Made by a program: the position numbers and the translations under genes. Under the pieces are notes generated by a model, which was not told where the DNA came from, ran no database searches, and saw nothing but the letters and a program-made list of their open reading frames with translations. 35,489 nt of DNA from an uncultured Myxococcales bacterium (GTDB taxonomy: Bacteria > Myxococcota_A > Polyangia > Polyangiales > Polyangiaceae), in contig CALFNG010000500.1 in the NCBI GenBank assembly GCA_937902985.1, forward strand, positions 1 through 35,489. Direction: 5' to 3'. The first letter of the stretch is position 1. The number at the start of each line of letters is the position of its first letter. This document shows, in pieces, positions 24,484 through 29,163 of this stretch.

Positions 24484-25536
24484 TTACTTCAGCGACTCGA
24501 TGTACGCGATGACCTCGTTCAGCTCCTGATCGGAGATCTGACCGCGGAAGGTCGGCATCACGGGCCCGAAGCCCGTCACGATCTTCGCCTGCGGATCGAG
24601 GATCGACTCGCGAATGTAGTTCTCGTCGATCTTGACCTTACCGACGTTGGTGGCTTCTTCCTTGCCCCAGATGCCCTTCCACGAGGGGCCGACGCCCGGA
24701 ACCCCGGTCGTCGTGTGGCAGGCCAGGCAGCCCTTGTTCGAATAGATCTTCTGCCCCTGCTCGGCCGCGATGTCGGCGGGGCACGGCTTGCCGGTGGTGG
24801 CGAACTGATCGCACTTGTCGCCGATGCTCTTCAGGAACTTGGCGTAGTCCTCTTCGGTCTCCGAGAACATCATCCCGTGCATGGCCCAGTGGCCGGTCGC
24901 CTGACCTGCCGGGTACGGATTGCGCGGGTCGTCGGACGGCTCGTACGGGAGCTCGCCGTTCGCGCCGGTGCTACGGCCGCCGCAGTACTCGGCGCAGGCG
25001 ATGTCGTCGTGACCGACGTGGGTCGTCTGGAACCAGACCGTCGTGAACATGCCCGGCACCACGTCGCGCTTCACGCGCAAGGCCGGCACGAAGAAGGAGT
25101 GGAGCACGTCGGCCGAGGTGAGAACGAGCTTCACCGGCTTGCCCTCCGGGACGTGCAGCTCCGGGCTGCTGCCGCCGTTCGGATAGACGAATTCCCAGCT
25201 CCACTGCTTGGCGTTGACCCGGATCTCGATCGAGTTCGCCGGGGCGACCGCGAGGTCCATGTAGCCCTGGAAGCCCTTGTGGAAGAGGAACACGAGGATG
25301 AAGATCGGCGCGACGGTCCACGCGATCTCGAGGGGCATGTTGTGCCCGGTCGGCGTCGGCTTGTGGCCGGGTCGCTCGCGGTACTTGATCGCCCAGTAGA
25401 TCATCGCCCCGACGATCGCGACGAAGAGAACGACGCTCGTCCAGTAGATGAAATAGTAGAGCCAGTCGATGTCTCCAGAGACAGTCGACATCTGCTCCGG
25501 GAGCTGGTAGGTGGCGGGTGCGTTCGACTCGTTCAT
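24484..25536 (-). CDS. coxB: Cytochrome c oxidase subunit II with fused cytochrome c domain; CuA motif interrupted
   Basis: The protein has 350 residues. Two membrane helices (about 24-48 and 70-90) are followed by the cupredoxin CuA domain with QWSWEF near 111 and His146. The CuA loop normally reads CxExCGxxHxxM; here Cys181, Glu183 and Cys185 are followed by 29 residues instead of two before His216 and Met219, so about 27 residues are inserted. The C-terminal monohaem domain has CLACH (270-274) and Met327 as likely sixth ligand, which makes the enzyme caa3 type. Two extra cysteines (242 and 252) precede the haem motif. No cleavable signal is obvious; helix 1 may serve. The insertion keeps frame and all ligands, so it looks functional. 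It lies 6 bp after the SCO gene. Confidence 0.94.
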
Positions 25537-25542
25537 GGCGAC

Positions 25543-26544
25543 TCAGGAGGTGGGGGTGTTCCGCGGAGTGGGCCCGAGAACGGAGACCGTTGGAGCGCGA
25601 GTCTCGTCGGCCCCGGCCGCGAGCGAGGGCGGGGAGGAGGCGTCGCCGCTCGCGGTCGAGGGGGCGGGGGACGCGGCGGTGCGGCCCTTCTTGTGCCGCT
25701 CGCGCATCCACATGATCCCGAGGAAGGTCGCGAAGAAGGCGAGCGTGACCGCGCCTCCGAGGCGCATCACGTTCATGGCGACGATCGAGTAGTGCTTTCC
25801 CTGCGGGTCGTAGTGGTAGCAAAAGAGCATGATCCGCTCGGTCGTCGAGATCGACCGGCCCTCGGTGGCCTCGAGGAGCCCGAGACGAACGTCTTTCGGG
25901 TCGTACGAGATGCCGTAGAGGTAACGGGCCATGTGCCCGTCGGGCGTCAGCAGGTAGATCGCTGCGGGGTGCGCGTACTGCTTTTGCCGCGCGTCGTACC
26001 GGTACTCGAAGCCGACGGACTCGGTCACCTTGCGGATGTTGATCTCGTCGCCGACGAGGAAGTGCCAGCCGGTCGTGTCGCCTCGAGCTCGCGTGTACGA
26101 CTGGACGACCTGGCCTCGCTTGCGCGTCGCCGTCTCGGGGGTGTCGTTCGGGTCGATACTGATGGAGACGACGTCGAACTCGCGGCCGACCGTCCACTGC
26201 ACGTCGTTGAGCGACCGCACCGTCGCGTCGAGCACGAGGCTGCAGAGCATCGGACAGGTGTGGTACGCGAACACCAGCAGCGTCGGCCGCTTGTGGTCGA
26301 AGTAGTCGCCCAGGTGAACCGCCTTGCCCTCCGCGTCGCGAAAGGCGGCGTCGGCCGGGAGCGGCCCCTTCAGGTGCTCGACGATGTCGACGCCCGTCAG
26401 CTCCGGCGCCGGTGTGTTCGGCATCCCCTCGCTCGTGTCCCGCCACGCTTGAGCGCGCGCGTTGCCGGCGACGACGACGAGGCAGATAGCCAACGCCGTG
26501 GCGGCCAGCAGCCGGGGGACGTGTCGAGCGGGGATCAACGTCAC
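25543..26544 (-). CDS. SCO1/SenC-family copper chaperone for the CuA site
   Basis: The protein has 333 residues. A signal peptide ends near residue 31 (NARAQA). The thioredoxin-like domain holds the copper ligands CPMLC (Cys97 and Cys101) and His192 (YAHPAAIYLL). SCO proteins deliver copper to, or reduce, the CuA cysteines of oxidase subunit II, and coxB is the next gene. A C-terminal membrane helix (about 255-275, AVTLAFFATFLGIMW) anchors it, unlike the N-terminal anchor of many SCO proteins, and a Ser/Pro/Ala-rich tail follows. The start is a GTG at 26544 overlapping the upstream stop as GTGA. Confidence 0.92.
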   Translation of the reverse strand: MTLIPARHVPRLLAATALAICLVVVAGNARAQAWRDTSEGMPNTPAPELTGVDIVEHLKGPLPADAAFRDAEGKAVHLGDYFDHKRPTLLVFAYHTCPMLCSLVLDATVRSLNDVQWTVGREFDVVSISIDPNDTPETATRKRGQVVQSYTRARGDTTGWHFLVGDEINIRKVTESVGFEYRYDARQKQYAHPAAIYLLTPDGHMARYLYGISYDPKDVRLGLLEATEGRSISTTERIMLFCYHYDPQGKHYSIVAMNVMRLGGAVTLAFFATFLGIMWMRERHKKGRTAASPAPSTASGDASSPPSLAAGADETRAPTVSVLGPTPRNTPTS

Positions 26545-27077
26545 TTCGTTGCCGGCTTCTTGGGCGGGCTCGGGGTGATGGGGCCGTTCACGGGGCGAAC
26601 ACCAGGGCTAACACCAGGGCTAACACCAGGGAGCGTGCCGTGGAGAGCAGCGGGAGCGCCGGCGTCGACGCTCGTGGAGGCTGCCGGTGCCGCGGGTGCG
26701 CCCCCGTCATCTAGCGCCGCCGCCATCATCGGCGAAGGGACCTCGTTCGGCATCTTCATCCAGCCCTGCATCGGGCCGATGTCCTTCGAGGCCGAGGGCA
26801 TGATGTCCGGGCTCGCGCCCATGCGCCCGCGGGCGACGATGGCCTCCATGGCCTTGTCGACCGGCATCGGGCCGCTCTTCAGGCGCTGGTCTTCGTCGGC
26901 TCGCAGGTTCAATAGCGCCGCGGGGACGACCATCCCGATCTTCCGGTGCTGTTCGCCGCTGGTGATGCTGTCGAAGTACGGGATGAGTACGCCTCGTATC
27001 CCGACGAGGCAGACGACCGCGAAGAGTCCGATCTGAAAGATCAGGCCGGACCGGGGCTCCGATTTATCAAAGGCCAT
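26541..27077 (-). CDS. Membrane-anchored Ala/Pro-rich protein of the ACIII operon, unknown function
   Basis: The protein has 178 residues. One membrane helix (about 13-32, LIFQIGLFAVVCLVGIRGVL) near the N-terminus leaves the rest in the periplasm. Residues 35-115 are a small, probably folded part with many Met residues (GMVV, GPMP, GRMG, DIMP, PMQGWMKMP), and 115-178 are Ala/Pro/Gly-rich with a PGVS repeat. There is no haem motif or cysteine after the helix. Its position between actF and the SCO gene, with a GTGA overlap to SCO, suggests a part in ACIII or oxidase assembly, perhaps metal handling by the Met-rich part; this is inference only. I recognise no family name. Confidence 0.78.
   Translation of the reverse strand: MAFDKSEPRSGLIFQIGLFAVVCLVGIRGVLIPYFDSITSGEQHRKIGMVVPAALLNLRADEDQRLKSGPMPVDKAMEAIVARGRMGASPDIMPSASKDIGPMQGWMKMPNEVPSPMMAAALDDGGAPAAPAASTSVDAGAPAALHGTLPGVSPGVSPGVRPVNGPITPSPPKKPATK
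26598..26631 (-). repeat. 12-bp tandem repeat, 2.8 copies, inside the ACIII-operon membrane protein
   Basis: AACACCAGGGCT (plus strand) is repeated from 26598 to 26631 without a mismatch. On the coding strand it gives the Pro-Gly-Val-Ser units near the C-terminus. The 12-bp unit preserves frame. Exact identity between copies suggests a recent slippage event. Confidence 0.85.
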
Positions 27078-27130: not shown

Positions 27131-28474
27131 TCATGCGTTCTCGAAGTCGAGCGCGCGCCCCAAGCGCGGGTCGCCGATCGGAACGAGCGAGTAGTCCTCC
27201 ATGCCTCGGAGGACGGCAGCCAGGTACACGCCGAAGACGCCCAGGAGGCACCCGAGGTCGACGATGCTCGGCTCGAACGGCCCCAGGTTCGGCATGATGA
27301 TCCAGTAGACCTCGATGACGTGCATGAAGACCATGCACCCGGCCCCGATCGCGAGGAGAGGCAGCTTCCTCTTGATGTTGCGCGACATCAGGAACCAGAA
27401 CGGCACGAAGAAGTGCATCAGCACGAGCGCGATGCTGAAGTTCTTCCAGGTGCCTCCGTTGTCGTGCCAGCGCTTGTGGAACCAGGCGACTTCGTCGGGG
27501 ATGTTCGAGTACCAGGTCAAGAAGAACTGGGCGAATGAGATGTACGACCAGAACACGATCCAGCCGAAGAGGAACTTCCCGAGGTCGTGATAGTGCTCGA
27601 CGGTGACCGCGTTGCCGAGGAGACCGCTCCTTCGCAGGGCCAGCGTCAGCAGGATGAGCGAGGCGATCTGGAAGAGCGCGCACTGCGCGAAGATCTGGAC
27701 GCCGAAGATCGTCGAGTACCAGGTGCCGTCGATCGACAAGAGCCAGTCGAAGGCGAAGTACGTCAGGCTGAAGCCGAAGAGGAGTATACCGGCGGGCGCG
27801 AAGCGCTGACCTGCGGCGGTGTTCTCGAGGGCCTTGGTCTTGTCTTGATCCGTCGACCACCGGAAGTATTTCTGAGCGAGCCAGGTCCAGATCAAGAGGT
27901 ACGCGATGAGCCGGACCAGGAAGAACTGGCGGTTCAGGTAGCTCCGCTTGTGGTTGATGATGTTCTCTTCGGCCCGCTCCTCGGCGTGCTCCATGCGCTT
28001 CGTGCTGGCGACCGGCAGGTCACGGAGGGCCGCCGGCTCGCGGCTCTCGAGGCCGCGCGCCTCGGCGATCGGGCTCTCCGACGACGTGTCGTTCTCGGGG
28101 GGCGCGGCGTGCTTCGCGCCGAGCCACGGGAAGAGGTGACCGATCGTCAGGACGAGCGGAATGACGAGGACCGCGAAGATCGGCATCGGCCGCATCAAGA
28201 GCTCGGCGACGCGCCGGACGGTGACGCTCCACGACGACTTGGTGATGTACTGCACCAGGACGAAGAACAGGCACCCGAGCGGCAGACTGATCGCGACGAA
28301 GAACGCGAACAGGTACGAGAAGGCGAACCGATCAGGGTCCATCTTGTAGCCGTACGCGGCGATCCCCAGGCCCAGCGCACCGACCCCCGCGGGGTACTTC
28401 CATGCGCCGTTCCAGGACGACTTCGCCGTGATGCGGTAGTCGCGCGCCGCGGCAGGCTTGATCGAGGTGCTCAC
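27131..28474 (-). CDS. actF: ActF, integral membrane subunit of alternative complex III
   Basis: The protein has 447 residues and about ten membrane helices, typical of ActF, the NrfD-like second quinol-binding candidate of ACIII. The N-terminus KSSWNGAWKYP is followed by a helix pair, and later segments WLLSIDGTWYSTIFGVQIF and SYISFAQFFLTWYSNIPDE are highly typical of the family. Between the third helix and the next is a hydrophilic loop of about 65 residues rich in Glu, Ala and Arg. The GTG at 28474 overlaps the actE stop as GTGA with GAAGAAG just upstream; the open frame reaches 28762 only as a shadow in actE. It is followed by a 53-bp gap to the unnamed membrane protein. Confidence 0.92.
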   Translation of the reverse strand: MSTSIKPAAARDYRITAKSSWNGAWKYPAGVGALGLGIAAYGYKMDPDRFAFSYLFAFFVAISLPLGCLFFVLVQYITKSSWSVTVRRVAELLMRPMPIFAVLVIPLVLTIGHLFPWLGAKHAAPPENDTSSESPIAEARGLESREPAALRDLPVASTKRMEHAEERAEENIINHKRSYLNRQFFLVRLIAYLLIWTWLAQKYFRWSTDQDKTKALENTAAGQRFAPAGILLFGFSLTYFAFDWLLSIDGTWYSTIFGVQIFAQCALFQIASLILLTLALRRSGLLGNAVTVEHYHDLGKFLFGWIVFWSYISFAQFFLTWYSNIPDEVAWFHKRWHDNGGTWKNFSIALVLMHFFVPFWFLMSRNIKRKLPLLAIGAGCMVFMHVIEVYWIIMPNLGPFEPSIVDLGCLLGVFGVYLAAVLRGMEDYSLVPIGDPRLGRALDFENA

Positions 28475-29163
28475 TTCTTCGGCTCCGTGGGCTGGCTGGA
28501 GTCCGCCATCTGGCTCATCTCGAGCGCGCGGACGTAGCTGACGATGGCCCAGCGATCGGCCACCGGAATCTGAGGGCCGTAGGCGGGCATCGTGCGTACG
28601 CCGTGGGTGATGGTCGCGAAGAGCTGCCCGTCGGGCATGTGCCGGAGACGCGGATCCTCGTACGAGGGCAGCGGCGCGAAGCCGCGCGACTCGCACGGGT
28701 CGGTCACCTTCTGGCGCTTGCAGACGACCATGCCCTTGCCGTCGCCCGTTCGGCCGTGGCACGGGGTGCAGTAGATCGTGTACCGCTCCTGGCCTCGGGC
28801 GAGCAGCTTCTCGATGCCGCCGGCGCGATTGATCGCCGCGGGCGGGACCGTCATCGCGTACCCCGACTTGTCGGGCAGGAGGCCGGTCGCCACCTCGGGA
28901 TCGTCTTCGTAACGGTCGCGCGCGATCGTGCCCTCGACCGGGGCTCGCATCGTGCGGTGGTCGGCGAAGAACTGGGAATACGACTCGGGGTTGTAGCGCT
29001 CGGTATCGTACATGTTGCGCTCGAGGAGGATCGGCGGATCGTCGCTCGTCTGCCCCCGGCAGCCGGCGACCCCGCCCGCGCTCAGCGCCACGCCAAGCGC
29101 GATGAGCGCACCGACCGCGCTCGACGCGCGAACCGTAACTGCAGCCGCGTTCACGCCGCTCAT
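28471..29163 (-). CDS. actE: ActE, monohaem cytochrome c lipoprotein of alternative complex III
   Basis: The protein has 230 residues. A signal peptide ends in the lipobox GVAGC (Cys35), so the protein is lipid-anchored on the periplasmic face. One class I cytochrome c domain follows with CTPCH (132-136) and Met192 (VRTMPAYG) as likely sixth iron ligand. Cys148 and Cys157 are placed to form a disulfide in an insertion after the haem motif. Lys and Ser/Pro fill the end. ActE is thought to pass electrons from ACIII toward the oxidase, here probably to the haem domain fused to CoxB. Both ends overlap neighbours: actD by ATGA and actF by GTGA. Confidence 0.93.
   Translation of the reverse strand: MSGVNAAAVTVRASSAVGALIALGVALSAGGVAGCRGQTSDDPPILLERNMYDTERYNPESYSQFFADHRTMRAPVEGTIARDRYEDDPEVATGLLPDKSGYAMTVPPAAINRAGGIEKLLARGQERYTIYCTPCHGRTGDGKGMVVCKRQKVTDPCESRGFAPLPSYEDPRLRHMPDGQLFATITHGVRTMPAYGPQIPVADRWAIVSYVRALEMSQMADSSQPTEPKK

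Follow-up and report, generated by a model that had tools for sequence, protein, structure and literature searches.

What is the role of the small gene that lies between actF and an SCO gene in the alternative complex III (ACIII) operon of this uncultured Myxococcales bacterium? The stretch of DNA analysed, here called the window, is 35,489 nucleotides long. A preliminary description of it proposed a real gene in this position, coding for a Met-rich, membrane-anchored protein that would act in copper delivery or as an extra ACIII subunit. The gene and its surroundings are as follows.

27131..28762, minus strand: open reading frame (ORF) holding actF, the gene before actG (match to 6f0k_F, E 6.9e-60)
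26541..27077, minus strand: actG-like gene, 178 aa; putative divergent ActG accessory subunit of ACIII (ORF listing, family link and slot)
25543..26544, minus strand: SCO1/SenC gene with a GTG start (PF02630, E 1.6e-10), in 4-base overlap with actG
24484..25536, minus strand: oxidase subunit II with a C-terminal cytochrome c domain, caa3 type (PF00116, PF00034)

The proposed gene is real: the minus-strand ORF 26541-27077 has an ATG start 53 bases after the actF stop and shares the four bases GTGA with the SCO gene. The likely start of actF itself lies about 96 codons inside its listed ORF (27131-28762), and a start near 28474 (VSTSIK) fits; the first 96 or so residues of the listed ORF are actE read out of frame. 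The untrimmed actF query gave a false actF match in another locus, L026, where the trimmed query gives none. The SCO family model PF02630 matches SCO1/SenC and does not match the product of the small gene (the window protein), for which Pfam and NCBIfam return no family up to E 1.

Four parts of the window protein can be distinguished.

26982..27038, minus strand: transmembrane helix core, residues 14-32, C-terminal side probably outside (hydropathy; AlphaFold2 helix 10-42; orientation from cytochrome c fusions of relatives)
26823..26924, minus strand: conserved, presumably periplasmic core, residues 52-85, PAALLNLRADEDQRLKSGPMPVDKAMEAIVARGR (alignments; periplasmic-only profile comparison; model helices 53-67 and 73-86)
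26748..26798, minus strand: second conserved stretch of the order-level subfamily, residues 94-110, P..S.D....GW..LP (P94, G105 and W106 nearly invariant)
26544..26747, minus strand: Pro/Ala-rich C-terminal tail, residues 111-178 (14 Pro and 13 Ala of 68 residues; pLDDT block means 48-76)

There is one hydrophobic stretch, with residues 14-32 as the best 19-residue window, and the only Cys (residue 23) is inside this helix; hydropathy, AlphaFold2 and composition thus agree with the single N-terminal helix and Cys-free periplasmic part described earlier. The AlphaFold2 model has helices at residues 10-42, 53-67 and 73-86 with a pLDDT of 69 and a poor tail, and the model of a relative from locus L144 has helices at 18-55, 59-75 and 90-100 with a pLDDT of 80. 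The two predicted structures agree in this layout. A Foldseek search of the PDB with the L144 model gave no match.

After residue 42 the window protein contains 10 Met, 2 His and no Cys in 136 residues. The Met excess has P = 0.02 against the 3.5% Met of nine neighbouring proteins and P = 0.003 against the 2.6% of the neighbours' soluble parts; both values are uncorrected and the gene was chosen for its Met-rich look. Of the earlier view that the periplasmic part is Met-rich, the excess itself stands, but it is mild and is shared in part by two congeners, which have 7 Met in 109 and 6 in 120 periplasmic residues.

One possible reading of this composition is a Met-rich copper-binding protein that would pass Cu(I) on, either to SCO or to the oxidase's CuA site. 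The ten Met residues and the overlap with the SCO gene favour it, as does one MxM (107-109), found beside one MM (117-118) and one MxxxM (103-107); the protein has no MxxM. Against it, the 22 other members of the order have only 0-6.2% Met after residue 42. If Met residues bound copper, a Met pattern would be expected to be conserved among orthologues, and only M77 is widely kept. M77 is found in 12 of 24 other rows from the order and is the last residue of the IPI(D/E)RAM motif, where the wider family has Met in 32/32 rows. The other seven periplasmic Met of the aligned core are kept in 0-6 of the 24 order rows, five of the eight aligned-core Met are not shared by both congeners, and nine of the ten periplasmic Met are without an equivalent in the wider family. 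Neither the two His nor the checkable Cys positions are kept. Conserved Met (or His/Cys) ligands, as expected of Met-rich periplasmic copper carriers, are therefore lacking in the window protein.

Other features are conserved in the order, where identity between orthologues is low. In the alignments an N-terminal helix is followed by LxxLRAxExxxL, (M/I)P(I/V)DxAM....GR and P..S.D....GW..LP; L24, L66, R85, P94, G105 and W106 are nearly invariant, W106 being among the positions at 90% or more. Two order-level profiles, A1 and A2, were used, both built without L002, L026, L027, L029, L030 and L031, and A1 also without L020. A third profile for the window subfamily (A7, 15 rows) omits ten rows of A2, including L025.

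Family membership can be traced through the proteins that follow actF elsewhere. In many other loci this slot holds a small one-helix protein of a longer form (LRAREEHLLGSYGWVDREKQIVRIPIERAMQLIVE in L096), and forms that bridge the window type and the longer form are found in L025, L094, L098 and L110. Searched against the PDB, the L096 protein finds its best match in chain G of 8k9e, the ActG of Chloroflexus aurantiacus (E 0.05). A profile of 22 slot proteins that includes no Chloroflexus sequence (A3) reaches the same chain at E 5e-5, with the next PDB match at 0.26; the order-level profile A1 alone does not find ActG in the PDB. A profile of 32 relatives (A6) reaches it at E 1.2e-11 (next match 0.13), these rows having been hand-chosen for spread, some from Myxococcota, out of 80 relatives gathered with a pattern from an alignment that contained the Chloroflexus ActG fragment.

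Compared with each other, profiles A7 and A6 score 97.8% (E 8.5e-13, 87 columns). With the helix removed, the periplasmic parts alone still score 96.7% (E 3.6e-10); 20 column-shuffled controls score 0.1-18.5% and the reversed control 2.0%. A chance likeness of two membrane helices is ruled out by the helix-free comparison and these controls. When the A6 HMM is run over 4182 six-frame ORFs, the window gene ranks 34th at E 0.06, and all 33 ORFs above it belong to the final family list. In the next round, which took in 22 matches below 1e-3, one congener among them and the window gene left out, the window gene scores 1.7e-11; in the final round it scores about 3e-26. At the last pass 69 ORFs score below 1e-3; a single false match, an oxidase subunit at 8e-4, is among them.

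Compared directly, A7 and the ActG fragment from Chloroflexus show a weak match (63.5% over 16 columns); consequently, membership rests on the chain of intermediates together with the slot. Through these intermediates, the window protein is most likely a divergent relative of ActG. It shows the traits of ActG as far as prediction goes: one transmembrane helix, a small periplasmic part and no haem motif. Against the wider family it has a gap of about 10 columns, where the SYGWVD segment (YGWVDREKxIVR) is lost; as the SYGWVDxxxGIVR segment is missing, it is classed on sequence as an ActG outside the SYGWVD subfamily. Pfam and NCBIfam hold no family that matches more than one of the 32 relatives at E 0.01, and a contig scan of genomes with the window protein alone as query found no relative.

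The window gene lies directly after actF in an act operon, which is the slot of ActG. A protein search of 58 genomes, including the window's own, was positive at E ≤ 0.1 in 39; many of the matches are weak. Among loci L001-L031, 26 hold actF by the trimmed query and 25 of these have a family match in the slot; the one left over, L001, holds the window gene itself, which entered the scoring as 'window'. A search for orthologues at the same place in other ACIII operons, suggested by the preliminary description, thus finds them in 25 of 26 loci, with the window gene itself as the remaining one. In a sample of 282 genomes of the phylum, 236 have ActD (PF11821) and 37 match the window-type profile A2; by comparison of the two lists, all 37 are also positive for ActD.

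The family extends well beyond the phylum. A scan for the motif [RH][IV]P[IV][DE][RQ]AM[DQK], which is blind to neighbouring genes and used one genome per species, gave 408 stretches and 280 relatives, of which 80 loci were kept. The records come from Acidobacteria, Verrucomicrobia, Planctomycetota, Chloroflexi, Proteobacteria, Myxococcota and others; Microbulbifer halophilus (Proteobacteria) is among the cultured carriers. In 78 of the 80 kept loci, the end of actF lies 254-668 bases upstream of the motif. The remaining two are L157, which begins at the end of a contig, and L172, whose best actF match is farther upstream. An SCO start lies within 1500 bases behind the motif in 73 of the 80; five of the other seven have fewer than 1200 bases remaining.

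Within Myxococcota the gene is found in part of the ACIII loci. Of 50 stretches, 44 contain actF and extend more than 400 bases past it; a family member lies there in 38 of these 44, some of which had been picked for an A2 match. The six loci without one include a second ACIII-like cluster in the window's own genome. In 31 loci hand-picked from the ActD list in genomes lacking an A2 match, a sample that leaned to strong ActD matches, 26 have a member. Twenty further loci from families with weaker ActD matches (divergent ACIII types) all contain actF, and none contains a member (0/20); hence the gene belongs to one type of ACIII locus within Myxococcota. It marks this locus type, and members too divergent for the model could escape it elsewhere. 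The proposal of an extra ACIII subunit is supported by family and slot, which reach a structurally resolved ActG; the gene is not in every ACIII operon, no member being detected in the 20 divergent-type loci.

Several unusual arrangements were seen in the course of the survey. In genome G050 (L103/L031; L103 is G050:C3:1500-9500) an ActG-like gene has no actF within 8 kb and heads a cluster of one-haem and two-haem cytochromes c and oxidase genes, with a subunit II that lacks CxxCH. In G043 (L026) an ActG-like gene follows actE and precedes a cytochrome c, and the stretch contains no actF. The second cluster in the window's genome (L100, G000:C98:8000-22000) has an ActD match at E 1.1e-25; its order is a five-haem ActA-like protein, ActB, ActC, a second ActD match and an actE/actF-like stretch, and it adjoins a gene whose start resembles, by eye, a radical SAM protein. 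No SCO, coxB, coxA or ActG-like match is found in the L100 stretch. In L106, L129, L130 and L131 a single ORF of about 414-431 aa with one haem motif spans the ActD and ActE matches; the two seem to be fused.

The company of the gene also bears on the copper reading. SCO and coxA were sought with the window's own proteins, so that a remote SCO could be missed, and counts cover loci with at least about 1.4 kb behind actF or with an SCO match (L098, L118 and L224 are too short). On this basis 27 of the 28 Myxococcota loci that have SCO behind actF carry the gene, against 9 of 33 without an SCO match. So close an association speaks for a copper link, yet it is also expected from a shared operon type. 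The exception, L237, has SCO directly behind actF and yet lacks the gene. The nine SCO-less carriers are L101, L102, L113, L119, L127, L128, L129, L131 and L138, each with 4.5-5.5 kb behind actF; L113, L119, L127 and L129 have no coxA match either. It follows that the gene does not need SCO. The Cp operon of C. aurantiacus, actABCDEFG without SCO in excerpts of PMC3150298, also speaks against copper transfer.

The role in copper delivery proposed earlier is judged against since conserved ligands are lacking, Met being unconserved outside the genus except at M77; company alone would leave the question open, and the gene persists in nine loci without an SCO match. A copper carrier is accordingly very improbable. 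It is harder still to credit a functionless, fast-evolving filler, kept by translational coupling from actF to SCO. Low identity between orthologues and a disordered-looking tail are what such a filler would show, but the P, A and M of the motif are invariant in 32/32 A6 rows and the gene persists where no SCO match is found.

Oxidase genes are also found next to ACIII where the small gene is missing. Five memberless loci (L121, L234, L235, L236 and L238, family f26) have oxidase genes downstream and no SCO; an ACIII-oxidase pair can thus do without the gene. The ACIII and oxidase genes of L121 are separated by the gene of a three-haem protein (477 aa). In L101, L102, L128 and L131, which have no SCO match, two-haem cytochromes c lie between the ActG-like gene and the oxidase; the subunit II ORF lacks CxxCH in these loci, where another oxidase type apparently stands beside ACIII.

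The position of the protein in the complex is suggested by gene fusions. In six Myxococcota ORFs of the family the core is followed by a cytochrome c domain with CxxCH: L141 (G060), L115 (G169), L119 (G065), L113 (G160), L101 (G039) and L029 (G048). They come from six genomes; G039 and G048 belong to one genus, and G060 and G160 to one family. Among the 80 kept relatives L162 is also fused to a cytochrome c; in L209 CxxCH occurs only in front of the likely start. The six fused domains were compared with the window's three cytochromes and match that of CoxB at E 1.6e-17 to 6e-34, against 0.001 or worse for ActA and 0.01 or worse for ActE. The oxidase subunit II of the window (24484..25536) carries a cytochrome c domain of the type that is fused to ActG-like proteins elsewhere.

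Haem c is attached outside the membrane; given the fusions, the C-terminal side of the family should be periplasmic. Repeated joining to an oxidase-type cytochrome suggests that the protein sits beside the place where this domain takes up electrons from ACIII, and the C-terminal part may lie near the electron exit of the complex.

The preferred reading is that the gene encodes a divergent ActG, predicted to be an accessory ACIII subunit with a stabilising or docking function in this organism; its probability is put at roughly 0.7 (0.72). The gene, its slot, the family link, the non-conserved Met residues and the relatives' fusions to oxidase-type cytochrome c were computed directly. From here we infer a stable subunit in this organism, with its location and role. 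A single transmembrane helix would anchor ActG, leaving the C-terminal part of the protein in the periplasm, with the conserved core on two short helices there. The protein would pack against the ACIII core and stabilise the complex, at a site that may be near the electron-leaving side, toward the cytochrome c domain carried by the caa3 oxidase of the neighbouring genes.

The same family and slot could instead belong to an assembly factor of this ACIII type or of the ACIII-oxidase pair, bound only during biogenesis. A small one-helix protein that adjoins the assembly gene SCO would suit this role, and many ACIII loci lack the gene. Excerpts of PMC5928083 report the ActG of R. marinus from peptide mass fingerprinting, without density in the map, which is also consistent with transient binding. 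However, the solved C. aurantiacus complex includes ActG as a chain (8k9e, 8k9f, 8x2j and 9ilt), and the cytochrome c fusions speak for a lasting place in the electron path. An assembly factor is consequently considered unlikely.

Known ActG proteins resemble the window protein to different degrees. C. aurantiacus ActG (8k9e_G, 112 aa) is likewise a small membrane protein, encoded in the slot after actF according to excerpts of PMC3150298. Its core ends LLNSYG...HIPIDRAMDLIVERGLP, as in the wider family; in contrast, the window protein lacks the SYGxx segment, has MPVDKAM for IPIDRAM, and has a GW stretch and a Pro/Ala tail in addition. The SYGWVD-type proteins found behind actF in several phyla share slot and core with the window protein, but they keep SYGWVDxxxGIVRIPI(D/E)RAM, the first part of which the window protein has lost. 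R. marinus ActG, likened here by description only, is the seventh subunit of the act cluster with a predicted single helix in excerpts of PMC5928083, where, alone among the subunit genes, its gene is missing from some clusters.

For M. roseus, PMC3534657 reports no homologue of R. marinus actG, and Nitrospirales clusters lack both actF and actG (PMC12342949). Besides its Cp operon, C. aurantiacus has a Cr cluster in which A, G, SCO and oxidase genes follow one another (PMC3150298). A 2022 proteomics study describes ActG as specific for C. aurantiacus ACIII and absent from that of R. marinus (PMC9316378, in part). This conflicts with the account of R. marinus ActG in PMC5928083, as far as the two excerpts go; the claim of specificity also conflicts with the spread of Chloroflexus-type ActG found here. 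The open-licence literature, as represented by excerpts, yielded no description of an ActG-like family in Myxococcota or Acidobacteriota.

The window protein is ordinary in kind and useful in detail: it is read as a divergent ActG, and the copper idea is unlikely. A 2024 study by Xin et al. reportedly found that ActG contributes to the stability of the complex. In the present data ActG is a companion of actF across several phyla with a recognisable motif, for which no Pfam or NCBIfam model was found, and the fusions with an oxidase-type cytochrome domain hint at where it is located. Because of this spread and these fusions, the joining of ACIII to its electron acceptor becomes testable in organisms that can be grown. 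A more tentative extension, possible but far from assured, is that ActG is a docking subunit between one ACIII type and its electron acceptor; its periplasmic core would hold the cytochrome c domain of the oxidase near ActE, an association repeatedly welded into one chain. If this is true, ActG would decide which oxidase or carrier such an ACIII feeds.
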